Below are positions 23,377 to 26,818 of a stretch of DNA of 64,000 bases, piece after piece. Position 1 is the first letter of the stretch, and every line of letters begins with the position of its first letter. A program made the translations under genes and the position numbers. Under the pieces are notes generated by a model that worked only from the letters and a program-made list of their open reading frames with translations, was not told the DNA's origin and ran no database searches. The stretch comes from Posidoniimonas polymericola. GTDB taxonomy: Bacteria > Planctomycetota > Planctomycetia > Pirellulales > Lacipirellulaceae. Where the stretch lies: NCBI RefSeq assembly GCF_007859935.1, contig NZ_SJPO01000001.1, positions 496,001 through 560,000 on the forward strand. The letters are read 5' to 3'.

Positions 23377-23507
23377 TGCAGGGTAGGGGAGCGGGTTCAG
23401 CGGGTTGGTGAGAAACATTCAGTTTACTTAGCGGGGCCGGTTTCGACTATCGGGAGCGGTTTTTGCCTGTTTTTTCAGCGGTCTGTCCCGTTGACGCCGC
23501 ATGCCCA

Positions 23508-23532
23508 GTAGCCGATGGATTACATCCATCGG
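23508..23532 (+). repeat. REP-like palindrome left of RAYT 1
   Basis: A GTAG foot (23508-23511) is followed by a perfect hairpin CCGATGGAT-tac-ATCCATCGG (23512-23532). A partner in opposite orientation stands on the other side of the transposase gene (24183-24207). Confidence 0.8.
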
Positions 23533-23617
23533 AGGCCCCGGGTAAGACTCGCAGGCTATAGTGTCGTTTTCGGTGCTTATCCGCAGGATGCAATCTGGCC
23601 CCTCCGGAGAAGCGTGC

Positions 23618-24100
23618 GTGCCCTGCTATTTGTTCACTTACCACGCTTACGGCTCGTGGATGCCAGACCGCGAAGACGGGTACGTTCGCCGCCGGCGAGG
23701 AGTCCTGCCGCCGGATCTCGGCATGGCGGACCAATATCGGACGAACGCCAGCGAAGACGCGGCAGACTTCTACGCTCCTGAGCAACGCACAATTATCGAG
23801 GCCGTGCTTGACGCGGCGCCGTTCATTCAAGTTGAGGTTCATTCGATCGCGACAGAGGCGACGCATTTTCATGTGCTTGCAAGCTGGAGATCTGAGCGGG
23901 ATCGCATCGGTGTTTCGAATAGCCTGCGCGGCCGAGTCCGGCGTGAACTGAGATTGCATTTTTCGGCGCGTCGTTGGCTTGCCCGAGACGCTTCGCGCCG
24001 CCAGGTGAAAGATCGGCAACACTTTGAGTACTTAGTGCAAACCTACCTTCCTAGACACCGGGGCCTGAAGTGGGACCGAAAACTTGGAATCTACGAGTAG
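23618..24100 (+). CDS. RAYT-like Y1 (HUH) transposase 1
   Basis: REP-associated tyrosine transposases are IS200-like single-strand DNA enzymes that act on REP hairpins. The 160-residue product starts PCYLFTYHAYGSWMPDREDGY, has the HUH motif as HFH in ATEATHFHVLASW, and a C-terminal block SRRQVKDRQHFEYLVQTYLPRHRGLKW in which the Tyr of QTYLP is the likely nucleophile. GTG 23618 is chosen by alignment with the second copy (start 26216). It is flanked on both sides by inverted palindromes. About 50% of residues match the second copy in the shared blocks, so the two are old relatives, not a recent duplication. Confidence 0.82.
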   Translation: MPCYLFTYHAYGSWMPDREDGYVRRRRGVLPPDLGMADQYRTNASEDAADFYAPEQRTIIEAVLDAAPFIQVEVHSIATEATHFHVLASWRSERDRIGVSNSLRGRVRRELRLHFSARRWLARDASRRQVKDRQHFEYLVQTYLPRHRGLKWDRKLGIYE

Positions 24101-24182
24101 CTGGTGTCAGCATGCAATACACGGCGGCGATTAAGTATTCTGAAGTGGAGTTGTTCAGCATAGAAACCGACCTGGTGATTCT

Positions 24183-24207
24183 CCGACGGATGTAATCCGT
24201 CGGCTAT
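24183..24207 (-). repeat. REP-like palindrome right of RAYT 1
   Basis: Read on the minus strand: foot ATAG (24204-24207), then hairpin CCGACGGATTACATCCGTCGG (24183-24203 on the plus strand as its complement). It differs from the left copy by one T-to-C and the matching A-to-G, so stem pairing is retained. Confidence 0.8.
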
Positions 24208-24224
24208 TGTGGTGATCTGTAGCG

Positions 24225-24785
24225 ATGGAAGCCGAACAACCCTTCAACCCTTACGCGTCGCCAACGGCCGAAGAAGCCCCCAGCGAGGTCGAGCAGCTGA
24301 AGGACAAGCGGCTGATCATCTTGCCTCCTGTGTGCGAGCTGCCGCGGCGGTGCGTATTCTGCAACCAGCCCGCCACCAAGTCGCACCGGCTGCGGTACCG
24401 CTGGTGGCTCTACTTCTGGGGCGTGTTCAGCATCTCGATCAAGTGGTACGCCTGTGAGTTGCATGATGTCCAGGTGCGGCGTCAGCAGCGTTCGTGGTGG
24501 AATTGGTTGGTCTGGTTCGCGGGCTTCATCGTGGTCGCGAATGGGATCGACTATCTGCCAGCGGGCGTTAGTGGTTTTCTAGGCGCCTATGGGTTCGGTG
24601 TGGCGATCGCGCTCGTTCTGGTGGCACACTACTGGTCGCGACGCAGAGAACACGAAGTGCTCACCCTCCCGACGGTCGACCGCGCGGAACCCGACGCGGT
24701 CGCCTTTAAGCACGCCGGCCGACCGTTCCTTGACAGCCTGGCCGACGGGGCCGAGGGGTACCTGGTGGTCGATAAAATCCCATAG
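24225..24785 (+). CDS. NPYASP zinc-ribbon-like membrane protein, paralogue 1
   Basis: This is the first of three tandem paralogues of a family not recognised. In the 186-residue product the order is: NPYASPTAEE lead (residues 8-17), a cytoplasmic module with Cys43-x2-Cys46 in ELPRRCVFCNQPA and Cys77-x2-His80 in WYACELHD, two membrane helices (about 92-108 and 115-137), and a short C-terminal tail with HAGRPFLDSLADGAEGYLVV. The CX2C-X30-CX2H arrangement could hold a zinc ion. Its stop is 9 bases before paralogue 2. The start ATG 24225 lies just after the REP of RAYT 1. Confidence 0.85.
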   Translation: MEAEQPFNPYASPTAEEAPSEVEQLKDKRLIILPPVCELPRRCVFCNQPATKSHRLRYRWWLYFWGVFSISIKWYACELHDVQVRRQQRSWWNWLVWFAGFIVVANGIDYLPAGVSGFLGAYGFGVAIALVLVAHYWSRRREHEVLTLPTVDRAEPDAVAFKHAGRPFLDSLADGAEGYLVVDKIP

Positions 24786-24794
24786 GTCTTGGCG

Positions 24795-25358
24795 ATGAAC
24801 GAAAACCCGTACGCGTCGCCAACGGCCGAGGAGCAGCCCGACGTTCTGCCCTCCAAGGACATCAAGGACGACCGGCTGCTGGTGACCCCGCCCATGTGCT
24901 CGCTGCCGCCGCGGTGTGTGTACTGCAACGCCGCCGCGGGGGACTCTCGCCCGACTGCCGGGTACTGGTGGTTCTCTTGGTCCGGACTCCGACGCGCCAA
25001 GGTGCAGTGGTTCACTTGCCAGGCCCACAAGCGTCAGCTCAATCGGCAGGCATGGCCGGGCCTTGCGATTGGTATTGCCTACCCTGCAATCTTCCTCGCG
25101 TCCGCGCTGCACGACTACATTCTTGGTGAGGAAGATTGGTTGGAACGCGTGCCGAAGGTTTTCATGCCCGTCTTCATCTTGACGATGGTGATTGCCTCAC
25201 TGCTATCCCTCTGGCTGACGAAAGGTTATCTGAAGCTCCCGAAGGTGGTCCGCGTGAAAAACGGCTCCGCCTACCTCAAACACGCCGGCCGGCCGTTCCT
25301 CGACAGCCTGACCGACGGCGCCGAGGGGTTCCGGGTTGTGCATAAGTTGCCGTCGTAG
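24795..25358 (+). CDS. NPYASP zinc-ribbon-like membrane protein, paralogue 2
   Basis: The 187-residue product has the same plan as paralogue 1: NPYASPTAEE at residues 4-13, Cys41-x2-Cys44, Cys75-x2-His78 with identical 30-residue spacing, two membrane helices (about 89-107 and 123-142), and the tail HAGRPFLDSLTDGAEGFRVV, which is nearly identical to that of paralogue 1. Between these blocks the two sequences differ strongly. ATG 24795 starts right at MNENPYASP; an in-frame TTG two codons upstream is not needed. It is closely spaced behind paralogue 1 and so likely cotranslated. No function is known. Confidence 0.85.
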   Translation: MNENPYASPTAEEQPDVLPSKDIKDDRLLVTPPMCSLPPRCVYCNAAAGDSRPTAGYWWFSWSGLRRAKVQWFTCQAHKRQLNRQAWPGLAIGIAYPAIFLASALHDYILGEEDWLERVPKVFMPVFILTMVIASLLSLWLTKGYLKLPKVVRVKNGSAYLKHAGRPFLDSLTDGAEGFRVVHKLPS

Positions 25359-25393
25359 TTGCTCGCCATCGCGATGCGCGCCGCGTTTGACTC

Positions 25394-25472
25394 GTAGCCC
25401 CCGGCTCTGCCGGGGGACGACTTACTAGGCTGGCCTGCCTATCATGCGATCCCCGGCAGAGCCGGGGGCTAC
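25394..25472. repeat. REP-like palindrome pair between paralogues 2 and 3
   Basis: The arm at 25394-25415 (foot GTAG, then CCCCCGGCTCTGCCGGGG) is a perfect 22-base complement of the arm at 25451-25472. Each arm is also a small hairpin by itself. The right arm is repeated exactly at 36465-36486. Confidence 0.85.
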
Positions 25473-25523
25473 GGGCGTATACTGGGATCGAATGATTCTC
25501 TTGTTCGCTGCTGAGTTGAGATT

Positions 25524-26060
25524 GTGACCGAATCCGCCGACCACAACCCGTACGCGTCGCCCCTGGCAGAGGACGAGCCTGGCGATCCGCCCGTGTGGGA
25601 CGCCTTCAGTCGCAACGGGTTGGTCGTCACGGCGCCCAAGTCAGAACTGCCTGCGAGGTGCTTCGTGTGCAACCAGCCCGCGACCCGCCGGCATCGGATG
25701 CGGCGCGACGGCTGGGTCACGATGAAAGGGTTGGTCTCCGTTTCTCTGCTCTGGTACTACTGCGACACGCACCACAAGCGTCAGTGGATCCGCCGGCTGT
25801 CACTTCCGGCGACGGCCCTGCTCATCCTACTGCTGCTGCAGATGGGGCCTGTGGTGACGCTGGCAATCCAGGCGGGGAATGTGGGCCTAGTAATATCACT
25901 GGCCGTCGCGATCGTTTTGTTAGTTTCGACGCTCTACGGCATCCGCTTGGCAGGGGAGTGGATTGGCGGCCGGCCAACCATTGTCGAAGTGACTCCCGCA
26001 CGTGTGAAAGTGAAGGGCGCCGGAGCAGCCTTCCTGGCGAGCATCCACCGCCCCGCTTGA
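25524..26060 (+). CDS. NPYASP zinc-ribbon-like membrane protein, paralogue 3
   Basis: The 178-residue product has HNPYASPLAEDE at residues 7-18, Cys46-x2-Cys49 in ELPARCFVCNQPA, Cys80-x2-His83 in WYYCDTHHKRQ, with the same 30-residue spacing as in the other two, and two long membrane helices (about 95-115 and 120-142). The C-terminal HAGRPFLDSL block of the others is reduced to a degenerate GAGAAFLASIHRPA. The start is GTG 25524, the only in-frame start that leaves the NPYASP lead. It is separated from paralogue 2 by a REP pair. Confidence 0.83.
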   Translation: MTESADHNPYASPLAEDEPGDPPVWDAFSRNGLVVTAPKSELPARCFVCNQPATRRHRMRRDGWVTMKGLVSVSLLWYYCDTHHKRQWIRRLSLPATALLILLLLQMGPVVTLAIQAGNVGLVISLAVAIVLLVSTLYGIRLAGEWIGGRPTIVEVTPARVKVKGAGAAFLASIHRPA

Positions 26061-26076
26061 CCACCGACCCCGATCA

Positions 26077-26170
26077 ATAGCCGGCGAGCTACGTCTCGGC
26101 GGATCTCTCTTAGCGGGGCAAACTCTGCTCTCGTGGGGGAGCATCCGCCGACGCGTAGGTCGCCGGCTAT
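26077..26170 (+). repeat. 94-base palindromic repeat, left copy flanking RAYT 2
   Basis: The element has foot ATAG and two facing hairpin halves (CCGGCGA...TCGGCGG at the left, CCGCCGACGCGTAGGTCGCCGG at the right), ending CTAT. A second copy in the same orientation lies at 26718-26811; the two differ at 6 of 94 positions. Confidence 0.9.
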
Positions 26171-26215
26171 TTTGGGGAATCTCCACTTGTGTTTGCCCGT
26201 GACTATGCTAGGGCC

Positions 26216-26701
26216 ATGCCCTGTTTTCTCTTCACCTACCACGCCTACGGCACGTGGCTGCCGGATCGGAGCGAAGGGTACGTTCAACGCAAGCGAGGTT
26301 TGCTTTTTCAGGATGTTGAAATGGGTCGCATCTACAGACACGCCATGACGGCTGACGCCGTCGTCTTCGATGGCGAACGCCAACTCGTTGCAATTGAGGC
26401 CGTGCTGAACGCCGCCCGGTGTGTTGATCTCACCGCTCATTCGATCGCCACTGAAACGACGCACGTCCACGCCCTCGTGAGCTGGGCCAGCGAACAACGC
26501 ACTTGGCTGCAGAACCGCTCGAGCGTCAAGAAGGCAATCACGCTAGCCCTGCAGCAAGGCTCTGACCGCAAGCAGTGGCTTTCTGACAGCGCGTCGCGCA
26601 AGCAAGTCAAAGACCGCAATCATTTCGCGCACCTGCTGCATAACTATCTGCCGTCGCACCGTGGCTGGAAGTGGGACGAACAAAAGGGGCGCTATCAGTA
26701 A
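26216..26701 (+). CDS. RAYT-like Y1 (HUH) transposase 2
   Basis: The 161-residue product is a relative of RAYT 1: PCFLFTYHAYGTWLPDRSEGYVQRKRG at the N-terminus, HUH motif HVH in ATETTHVHALVSW, and the C-terminal SRKQVKDRNHFAHLLHNYLPSHRGWKW with the probable nucleophile Tyr. ATG 26216 is chosen over 26189 because MPCFLFTYHAYG is the shared start of both copies. The gene is bracketed by two 94-base direct repeats of a palindrome, as expected for a transposase that recognises those hairpins. A TATGCT hexamer ends a few bases before the ATG. All key motifs are intact, so the enzyme may be active. Confidence 0.85.
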   Translation: MPCFLFTYHAYGTWLPDRSEGYVQRKRGLLFQDVEMGRIYRHAMTADAVVFDGERQLVAIEAVLNAARCVDLTAHSIATETTHVHALVSWASEQRTWLQNRSSVKKAITLALQQGSDRKQWLSDSASRKQVKDRNHFAHLLHNYLPSHRGWKWDEQKGRYQ

Positions 26702-26717
26702 CCGGTCAGCGATTCCC

Positions 26718-26811
26718 ATAGCCGGCGAGCTACTCCTCGGCGGATCTCTCTTAGCGGGGCAAAATCTGCTTTCGTGGGGGAGCAACCGCCGACGCGTAGG
26801 TCGCCGACTAT
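26718..26811 (+). repeat. 94-base palindromic repeat, right copy flanking RAYT 2
   Basis: This is the second copy of the element at 26077-26170. It ends 7 bases before the purC stop codon on the opposite strand, so it also fills the gap between the convergent RAYT 2 and purC genes. Confidence 0.9.
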
Positions 26812-26818
26812 TGTCTTG

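Follow-up and report, generated by a model that had tools for sequence, protein, structure and literature searches.

Three tandem NPYASP-lead membrane proteins of Posidoniimonas polymericola: a short-linker branch of a wider family with a predicted zinc ribbon

Introduction

How is it that three adjacent genes of Posidoniimonas polymericola encode proteins that have diverged over most of their length, yet keep four Cys and His residues at exactly the same spacing? The genes, designated A, B and C here, lie in what we call the window, that is, the whole 64,000-nt stretch of DNA that was analysed. A sequence-only reading of this DNA had proposed that the 3 products belong to an undescribed family of membrane proteins with an invariant CX2C-X30-CX2H ligand set and a cytoplasmic zinc ribbon, and that the genes may form an accessory set expanding together with the RAYT transposase genes on either side of them. 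Equal spacing in 3 homologues is inherited and does not constitute 3 independent observations, so that a wider family is the real test of the proposal. As described below, the observation itself was confirmed and its interpretation was partly supported.

Results

The 3 paralogous ORFs are adjacent and all lie on the + strand. Gene A (24225..24785, 186 aa) encodes an NPYASP lead (24246..24263, +), a zinc-ribbon-like ligand set, 2 membrane helices and an HAGRPFLDSL tail. Genes B (24795..25358, 187 aa, ATG start) and C (25524..26060, 178 aa, GTG start, with the tail GAGAAFLASI) follow the same plan, with their NPYASP leads at 24804..24821 and 25545..25562, respectively, on the + strand. An in-frame TTG at 24789, upstream of the ATG at 24795, is also open in gene B, which is best read from the ATG, the start that yields the residue numbering of the sequence-only reading. 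The 4 putative ligands are located where that reading had placed them: C43, C46, C77 and H80 in A (24351..24464, +, as computed from the sequence), C41, C44, C75 and H78 in B (24915..25028, +), and C46, C49, C80 and H83 in C (25659..25772, +). In a six-frame translation of the whole window the pattern C..C-x30-C..H occurs 3 times, once in each ORF. Identity between A and B was 41% in a whole-genome search and 44% by alignment, and between A and C 34% and 33%, respectively; the products are thus homologous, at 33–44% identity. Each has 2 hydrophobic segments, an [ES]LPxRC stretch is common to all 3, and A and B have the HAGRPFLDSL tail in common, all as had been described. A perfect 23-nt inverted repeat (25393..25473; arms 25393-25415 and 25451-25473) lies between B and C. 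With a broad profile we detected no further copy in the genome at E ≤ 0.001 (6.26 Mb, 27 contigs; 78 of 101 candidates scored).

Beyond the window, A, B and C have relatives in a larger family of membrane proteins that is not catalogued, in which they form a branch with a short linker. The trio aligned with a set of 23 relatives, no window protein among them, with an hhalign probability of 99.1 and E of 6.7e-19; hmmsearch gave E of 2.9e-40 to 4.6e-35 for A–C with a profile that itself contains them. The relatives share a plan that begins with an NPYxxP lead, continues through GxWRxGxLLV, LPxRCxxCNxPA, a hydrophobic stretch and CxxH with Arg/Lys behind it, and ends with 2 membrane helices and then WLKGVxxxFLxxLP. 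No Pfam or NCBIfam model reached its cut-off for A–C or 10 relatives, in agreement with the earlier statement that the family could not be named, and no zinc-ribbon model of Pfam matched A, B or C. A literature search on the lead motif returned no paper, which is weak evidence of absence given that most subscription journals lie outside its coverage, and a search of the same coverage on Planctomycetes, the GYF domain and membrane proteins likewise returned none.

We found 26 loci among 34 candidate stretches in a scan of genome contigs; all 26 are MAG contigs, and single placements may be binning errors. They come from Planctomycetota, Verrucomicrobiota, Acidobacteriota (Holophagaceae and Blastocatellia) and proteobacterial or myxococcal records, with full-length members in L052 (record title delta proteobacterium) and L061 (proteobacterium), and partial ones in L063 (Deltaproteobacteria) and L064 (Myxococcota). 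With a broader profile, matches at E ≤ 0.001 were obtained in 15 of the 43 genomes that represent the taxonomic family. At the level of the phylum, where 8 candidates were scored in each genome, at least 23 of 392 genomes had a match at E ≤ 1e-4. The trio profile matched 26 of the 296 genomes of the order at E ≤ 0.01, of which at least 2 matches are false: L030 and L032 are transporter-like ORFs and were rejected as members, so that the figure of 26 is too high by at least 2. The same profile gave a fourth match in the trio's own genome, C15, with E of 0.005.

We used the wider family to examine the 4 ligand positions. Among 96 distinct family ORFs, 8 with E above 1e-9 were left unaligned and 88 were aligned, giving 89 rows; 6 rows with gaps in the ligand columns were dropped (L012, which reads CT-A; the 2 pieces of L017, which together read CCCH; L064; and the 2 pieces of L083), and ligand counts refer to the 83 rows with letters at all 4 ligand columns. 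The ligand pattern of a zinc ribbon, a CX2C pair and a CX2C/H pair, was present in A, B and C and in 55 of the 83 relatives. These 55 are the rows in which the second Cys is present, and all of them are complete, having the third Cys and, at the fourth position, either His (44) or Cys (11). The other 28 rows have Thr (25), Ser (2) or Tyr (1) at the second position. In no case is their set complete: 25 have neither later ligand, while L033 and both L093 ORFs keep one. Homologues that lack the Cys/His residues, which had been named beforehand as evidence against the proposal, thus make up part of the family, and they limit the term "invariant" to the window branch. The joint loss itself argues for a metal site. 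The association among ligands 2–4 in the 83 rows has a Fisher p of about 1e-22, with kinship ignored; the best quick tree, built without the ligand columns, contains 9 changes of ligand state, and its strongly supported branches force only 1.

A second search, run with a different profile, added 39 ORFs. This later set drew on 29 places and on the 10 new loci among another 12; the duplicates L215 (of L206), L226 (of L062), L198 (of L087) and L199 (of L119) were not counted, and the second tetrads were assigned by visual inspection and confirmed with a script. Here the ligand set was complete in 33 of the 34 proteins with the second Cys, and both later ligands were present in 1 of the 5 without it. 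The 2 exceptions to joint loss among the 39 are L200 (CVVC and CVND), with 3 Cys and Asp for His, and L204 (CMIS and CNQH), which has lost the second Cys and kept CxxH. In the aggregate, the later ligands accompany the second Cys in 88 of 89 proteins and are present in 1 of the 33 without it, and loss of ligands 2–4 nearly as a unit is what a joint metal site predicts. The first Cys was kept in 122 of 122 proteins, even where no other ligand remains. A purely structural zinc site does not account for this conservation, and the 28 of 83 rows with incomplete sets indicate that metal is not essential to the module.

The spacing between the ligand pairs, which had been described as fixed, is so only in the window branch. 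This branch, comprising A–C and 2 proteins from G115, another genome of the genus, has a linker of 30 residues in 5 of 5 members and forms one group (support 94, quick tree), while the 55 ligand-complete relatives have linkers of 30 to 85 residues. The linker is 47–49 residues long in 52 of all 83 rows. Other short linkers are those of L013 and L039 (31) and L038 (36), all without the ligands, of L027 (36), with them, and of L205 (29), a kinase-linked member in which the short linker looks like a separate loss of an insert.

That insert is visible in the predicted structures. The AF2 model of A (mean pLDDT 81.9, from 26 aligned sequences, with low confidence in the lead) has strands at 30-33 and 36-43 leading into the first ligand pair, a hairpin of strands 52-63 and 66-76 with no helices between them, a helix at 78-107 that begins within CxxH, a second helix at 117-143, and then strands and a short helix; the 2 predicted membrane helices correspond to 24456..24653 on the + strand. 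In the model of L043, which represents the usual form (pLDDT 90.2), strands 56-63 and 88-95 enclose helices 66-74 and 76-86, and helices 98-127 and 134-155 follow. In the usual form the ribbon hairpin is thus predicted to end in a helical hairpin some 20 residues long, which is too short for 2 membrane crossings and probably dips into the membrane; the window branch is without it, and we read it as lost there. Both models place a zinc-ribbon-like beta-hairpin ahead of 2 membrane helices. Because no solved structure matched, the ribbon assignment rests on the ligand pattern and the predicted strands: Foldseek gave no solved fold for the models of A or L043 at E ≤ 0.001, its lists being filled by generic helical hairpins, so that the absence of a zinc ribbon from them carries no information, and a PDB sequence search gave nothing below E 0.15. 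The earlier description of a membrane protein with a zinc ribbon is supported, as regards a zinc-ribbon-like ligand set, by the beta-hairpin predicted between the ligand pairs and by the near-joint loss of ligands 2–4, zinc being the presumed metal.

Under the positive-inside rule, basic stretches beside membrane helices mark the cytoplasmic side, and the basic residues that adjoin CxxH would place the ribbon there. Nucleic-acid binding is common among zinc ribbons, and this general property, together with those basic residues, would suit a membrane-tethered regulator in which the ribbon reads DNA or RNA. We consider such a regulator highly improbable, since the sequence around the ribbon varies strongly, the linker is freely replaced or shortened, and a Pfam scan of the trio and relatives revealed no helix-turn-helix or other reader.

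The module is attached to several different N-terminal parts. It stands behind GYF_2 in 3 proteins of Verrucomicrobiota (L056, E 2.5e-19; L041; L060), all over the cut-off, behind a double zinc ribbon (DZR) in L044, just over the cut-off, and behind a Ser/Thr kinase in L087 and L119, the latter also having ankyrin repeats behind the module. A profile of the kinase-linked form matched 33 of the 297 genomes of the class at E ≤ 1e-5. In 9 of those 33 genomes the matching open frame was longer than 500 aa, with shorter frames in the others, and the kinase domain was present in 9 of 9 long ORFs (L087, L119, L200, L201, L202, L203, L204, L205 and L211), 3 of which (L200, L201 and L204) have an incomplete ligand set. 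The module is thus portable, and it is the N-terminal part that varies.

These fusions bear on the main rival to the reading that we favour, namely a zinc- or redox-responsive sensor whose ligand set would be a switch acting on the attached N-terminal part. Metal loss or Cys oxidation would, on that view, change the hairpin at the membrane and hence the lead or the kinase. A kinase domain ahead of the module in every long ORF scanned, a Cys-rich site predicted to lie at the membrane surface, and a first Cys retained without the others would all suit a sensor. We nevertheless think a sensor unlikely, because 28 of the 83 relatives keep the module without the full set, because 3 of the kinase-linked proteins are themselves among the incomplete ones, and because no metal-homeostasis family stands out among the neighbouring genes beyond 4 CNNM/CBS matches among 107.

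The lead, by comparison, is not confined to this family. We observed 56 matches to AAYCCNTAYNNNNNNCC in the P. polymericola genome, compared with 15 for the permuted control CCNAAYTAYNNNNNNCC. Of 46 distinct matches to the lead, 36 lie at most 20 codons from an in-frame start (ORF of 60 aa or more); among these 36, 34 read NPYxSP and 32 have a hydrophobic segment, whereas 6 of the 15 control matches were start-proximal, one of them with a hydrophobic segment. A Pfam scan of 29 NPYxSP-type proteins gave 3 RDD and 2 YcxB matches and 1 DUF6814 match at 0.00092, with no match for the rest. The NPYxSP lead is therefore a general feature of membrane proteins in this genome and no mark of the trio's family. 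GYF_2, a candidate reader of the lead, occurs at 5 places in the same genome.

The trio is flanked by 2 RAYT-like HUH genes that are outside the family, at 23561..24100 (+) and 26189..26701 (+). Inverted repeat arms (23506-23534 and 24181-24209) lie on both sides of the first, and 95-nt palindromic direct repeats (26077-26171 and 26718-26812) on both sides of the second. Residues H102, H104 and Y162, corresponding to an HUH motif and a Tyr, are invariant in 5 homologues, and alignment with PF01797-type transposases gave an hhalign probability of 63.7 and E of 6.7e-5, with the HxH pairs aligned. The flanking genes themselves had no Pfam match and no PDB sequence match, and PF01797, found at 6 places in the genome, was matched nowhere in the window. 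As to such repeats, PMC3733652 reports GTAG-tagged ones in the PVC superphylum and describes RAYT genes as having GTAG repeats or other terminal inverted repeats on their flanks.

In support of an accessory set spreading with transposases, as the sequence-only reading had suggested, it can be said that 2 of only 4 RAYT-like copies in the genome, each with its own repeats, flank the trio, and that counterparts of B and C are present at the same place in G115 together with a single RAYT-like gene. The repeats surround the RAYT-like genes and not the trio, however, the genes around the trio otherwise keep their order in G115, and no RAYT-like gene was found at the other family loci scanned (flanks of 1.5–4 kb; loci up to L192). 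The link is local, to 2 genomes of one genus. In a quick tree, A falls outside the pair formed by B and its G115 partner (support 92 and 96), so the A/B duplication seems older than the split of the 2 species, and the absence of A from G115 probably reflects a loss there and not a recent gain in P. polymericola. On these grounds we rejected an expanding, RAYT-tied set, to which we now give hardly any credence.

Neighbouring genes provided a measure of divergence. B and C are 44% and 42% identical to their G115 partners, compared with 94% for the gene before the trio, which by sequence reading we take to be chorismate synthase, 72% for the gene after it, presumably SAICAR synthetase, 84% for the next gene, and 62–80% for 3 others upstream. 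These proteins thus evolve fast around fixed ligands. Adjacent family copies were found at 8 places in the first set (the window, G115, G095, G221, L062, G598, G006 and G580), accounting for 17 of the 96 distinct ORFs if the broken gene L083 is not counted, and also in G747, G790 and G849. Tandem arrangement is thus recurrent without being the rule. Fast divergence and recurrent tandem copies are also what one would expect of small effector or immunity-type membrane proteins, whose tandem copies an arms race would maintain. This seems improbable to us: PADLOC gave no model match at E ≤ 1 for any of 10 proteins, which included 8 members of the family (A, B, C and 5 relatives); PHROGs gave no match for A–C and elsewhere only matches weaker than E 0.001, the best (0.002) being that of the N-terminal part of L056 to a DksA-like finger; and members of the family occur in fusions with kinases and GYF_2 domains. 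A search of viral contigs with A gave 3 stretches, with no relative among them.

We surveyed 139 neighbouring ORFs from 23 of the 26 named loci, omitting L048, L049 and L055 as near-copies of L045; in L040, L045, L053 and L062 the simple ORF caller preferred another frame over the family gene. Of the 139, 107 were scanned, the remaining 32 being mostly short or overlapping. The commonest families were ABC_tran, CNNM and CBS, with 4 each of 107 among the best 25 of 116 families. There was no clear conserved gene partner, and no Pfam family occurred in more than 4 of the 107 neighbours among the matches listed, a result more in keeping with a generic module than with a dedicated pathway.

Discussion

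We lean, with some reserve, towards the reading that A, B and C are membrane-anchored zinc-ribbon modules with a docking or regulatory role. The homology, the near-joint loss of ligands and the exchange of N-terminal parts are computed results and the fold is a prediction, whereas zinc as the metal, the cytoplasmic side and the docking function are deduced. On this reading each would be a small inner-membrane protein in which a flexible N-terminal NPYASP lead is followed by a cytoplasmic zinc ribbon, made up of CX2C, a beta-hairpin and CX2H, and then by 2 helices that span the membrane; a small element, KHAGRPFLDSL in A and B and WLKGVxxxFLxxLP in relatives, would lie C-terminal to them. At the membrane surface, the metal would hold both ends of the beta-hairpin together. 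Most relatives would have the short helical hairpin at the tip, where it probably dips into the membrane, and the window branch would do without it. Ribbon and C-terminal element might together form a platform on the cytoplasmic face, to which the N-terminal attachment, whether an NPYxxP lead, GYF_2, another zinc ribbon or a Ser/Thr kinase, would bring partners or catalysis.

A broader possibility, which we hold to be slightly less probable even than the sensor, is that the family constitutes a new and widespread signalling module of the membrane interface. Such a module would sense the condition of the membrane or of zinc and relay it to exchangeable N-terminal parts, Ser/Thr kinases included, and the NPYxSP lead would serve planctomycete membrane proteins as a general address tag recognised by a common partner. 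If true, the module would consist of a two-helix anchor that carries a zinc ribbon, whether or not the ribbon has a membrane-dipping tip. The kinase-linked members make the sensor alternative testable. Since the module is present in full-length form in at least 3 phyla, is matched over cut-off by no Pfam or NCBIfam model in the members scanned, and stands behind protein kinases and GYF_2 domains, giving it a name would provide an annotation for many orphan membrane proteins in one step, and the lead, carried by some dozens of mostly unnamed membrane proteins in one genome, is possibly an unrecognised sorting or docking signal.

Several known families resemble A–C in part. Zinc ribbons such as DZR (PF12773) likewise have 2 CX2C/H pairs with a beta-hairpin between them, the hairpin being predicted in our case; they differ in that the ribbon of this family directly precedes 2 membrane helices and in most relatives has a helical hairpin at its tip. 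YyzF (PF14116) and the CxxH/CxxC protein TIGR04129 are also small CxxC/CxxH proteins, with models spanning 48–49 residues, and gave weak matches: L011 scored 12.9 of 27 and 13.4 of 35 bits, respectively, and A 11.7 of 35 bits. The best Pfam score of A, 20.3 bits against DUF6232 (PF19744), is under the cut-off of 27.4 and covers residues 78-145, which are the membrane helices. RDD (PF06271) and YcxB-like (PF14317) proteins have the NPYxSP lead in common with the trio in the P. polymericola genome, but their membrane domains are different ones, with no match in A, B or C. Planctomycete Ser/Thr kinases (PF00069) include the 9 long ORFs with the module behind the kinase, whereas the window proteins are without a kinase. 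Similarly, GYF_2 (PF14237) proteins of Verrucomicrobiota have the same module behind GYF_2, in the position where the window proteins carry the NPYASP lead instead.

Putative metal-ligand residues of the family

Family alignments showed that the first ligand Cys, which in member A of the trio is C43 (window 24351-24353), is retained in 122 of the 122 family members examined, including those that do not carry the remaining ligands. In nine kinase-linked members (L087, L119, L200 to L205 and L211), a Ser/Thr kinase domain is followed by the membrane module, and the ligand set is incomplete in three of these (L200, L201 and L204). The linker between the ligand pairs, which in the usual form of the family is predicted to contain an inserted helical hairpin, is 29 residues long in the kinase-linked member L205 (982-3333, genome G797) and cannot accommodate the hairpin; apparently, this insert was lost separately in L205. 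Also, one family gene (L083:1477-2189, genome G478) is broken across two overlapping frames, reflecting either a frameshift or an assembly error.

The NPYxSP lead

We observed 56 DNA matches to the NPYxSP-type lead in the P. polymericola genome, where it lies at the start of some dozens of membrane proteins, mostly unnamed (for example, at loci L142:1474-2563 and L150:1218-2188). Among these are two further arrays, on contigs C3 (545476-547163, 4 leads) and C4 (461484-464636, 6 leads). Possibly, the lead is a general address tag.

RAYT-like genes and repeats around the trio

The two RAYT-like HUH genes of the window (23561-24100 and 26189-26701) gave no match to PF01797. The four RAYT-like copies in this genome constitute a divergent group, in which HxH and YLPxH are invariant. 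A perfect 23-nt inverted repeat, with GTAG near its outer ends, lies between members B and C (window 25393-25473). Each RAYT-like gene of the window is bordered on both sides by its own pair of palindromic repeats (23506-24209 and 26077-26812), and one of these repeat types ends in GTAG, resembling in this regard known REPs (PMC3733652).
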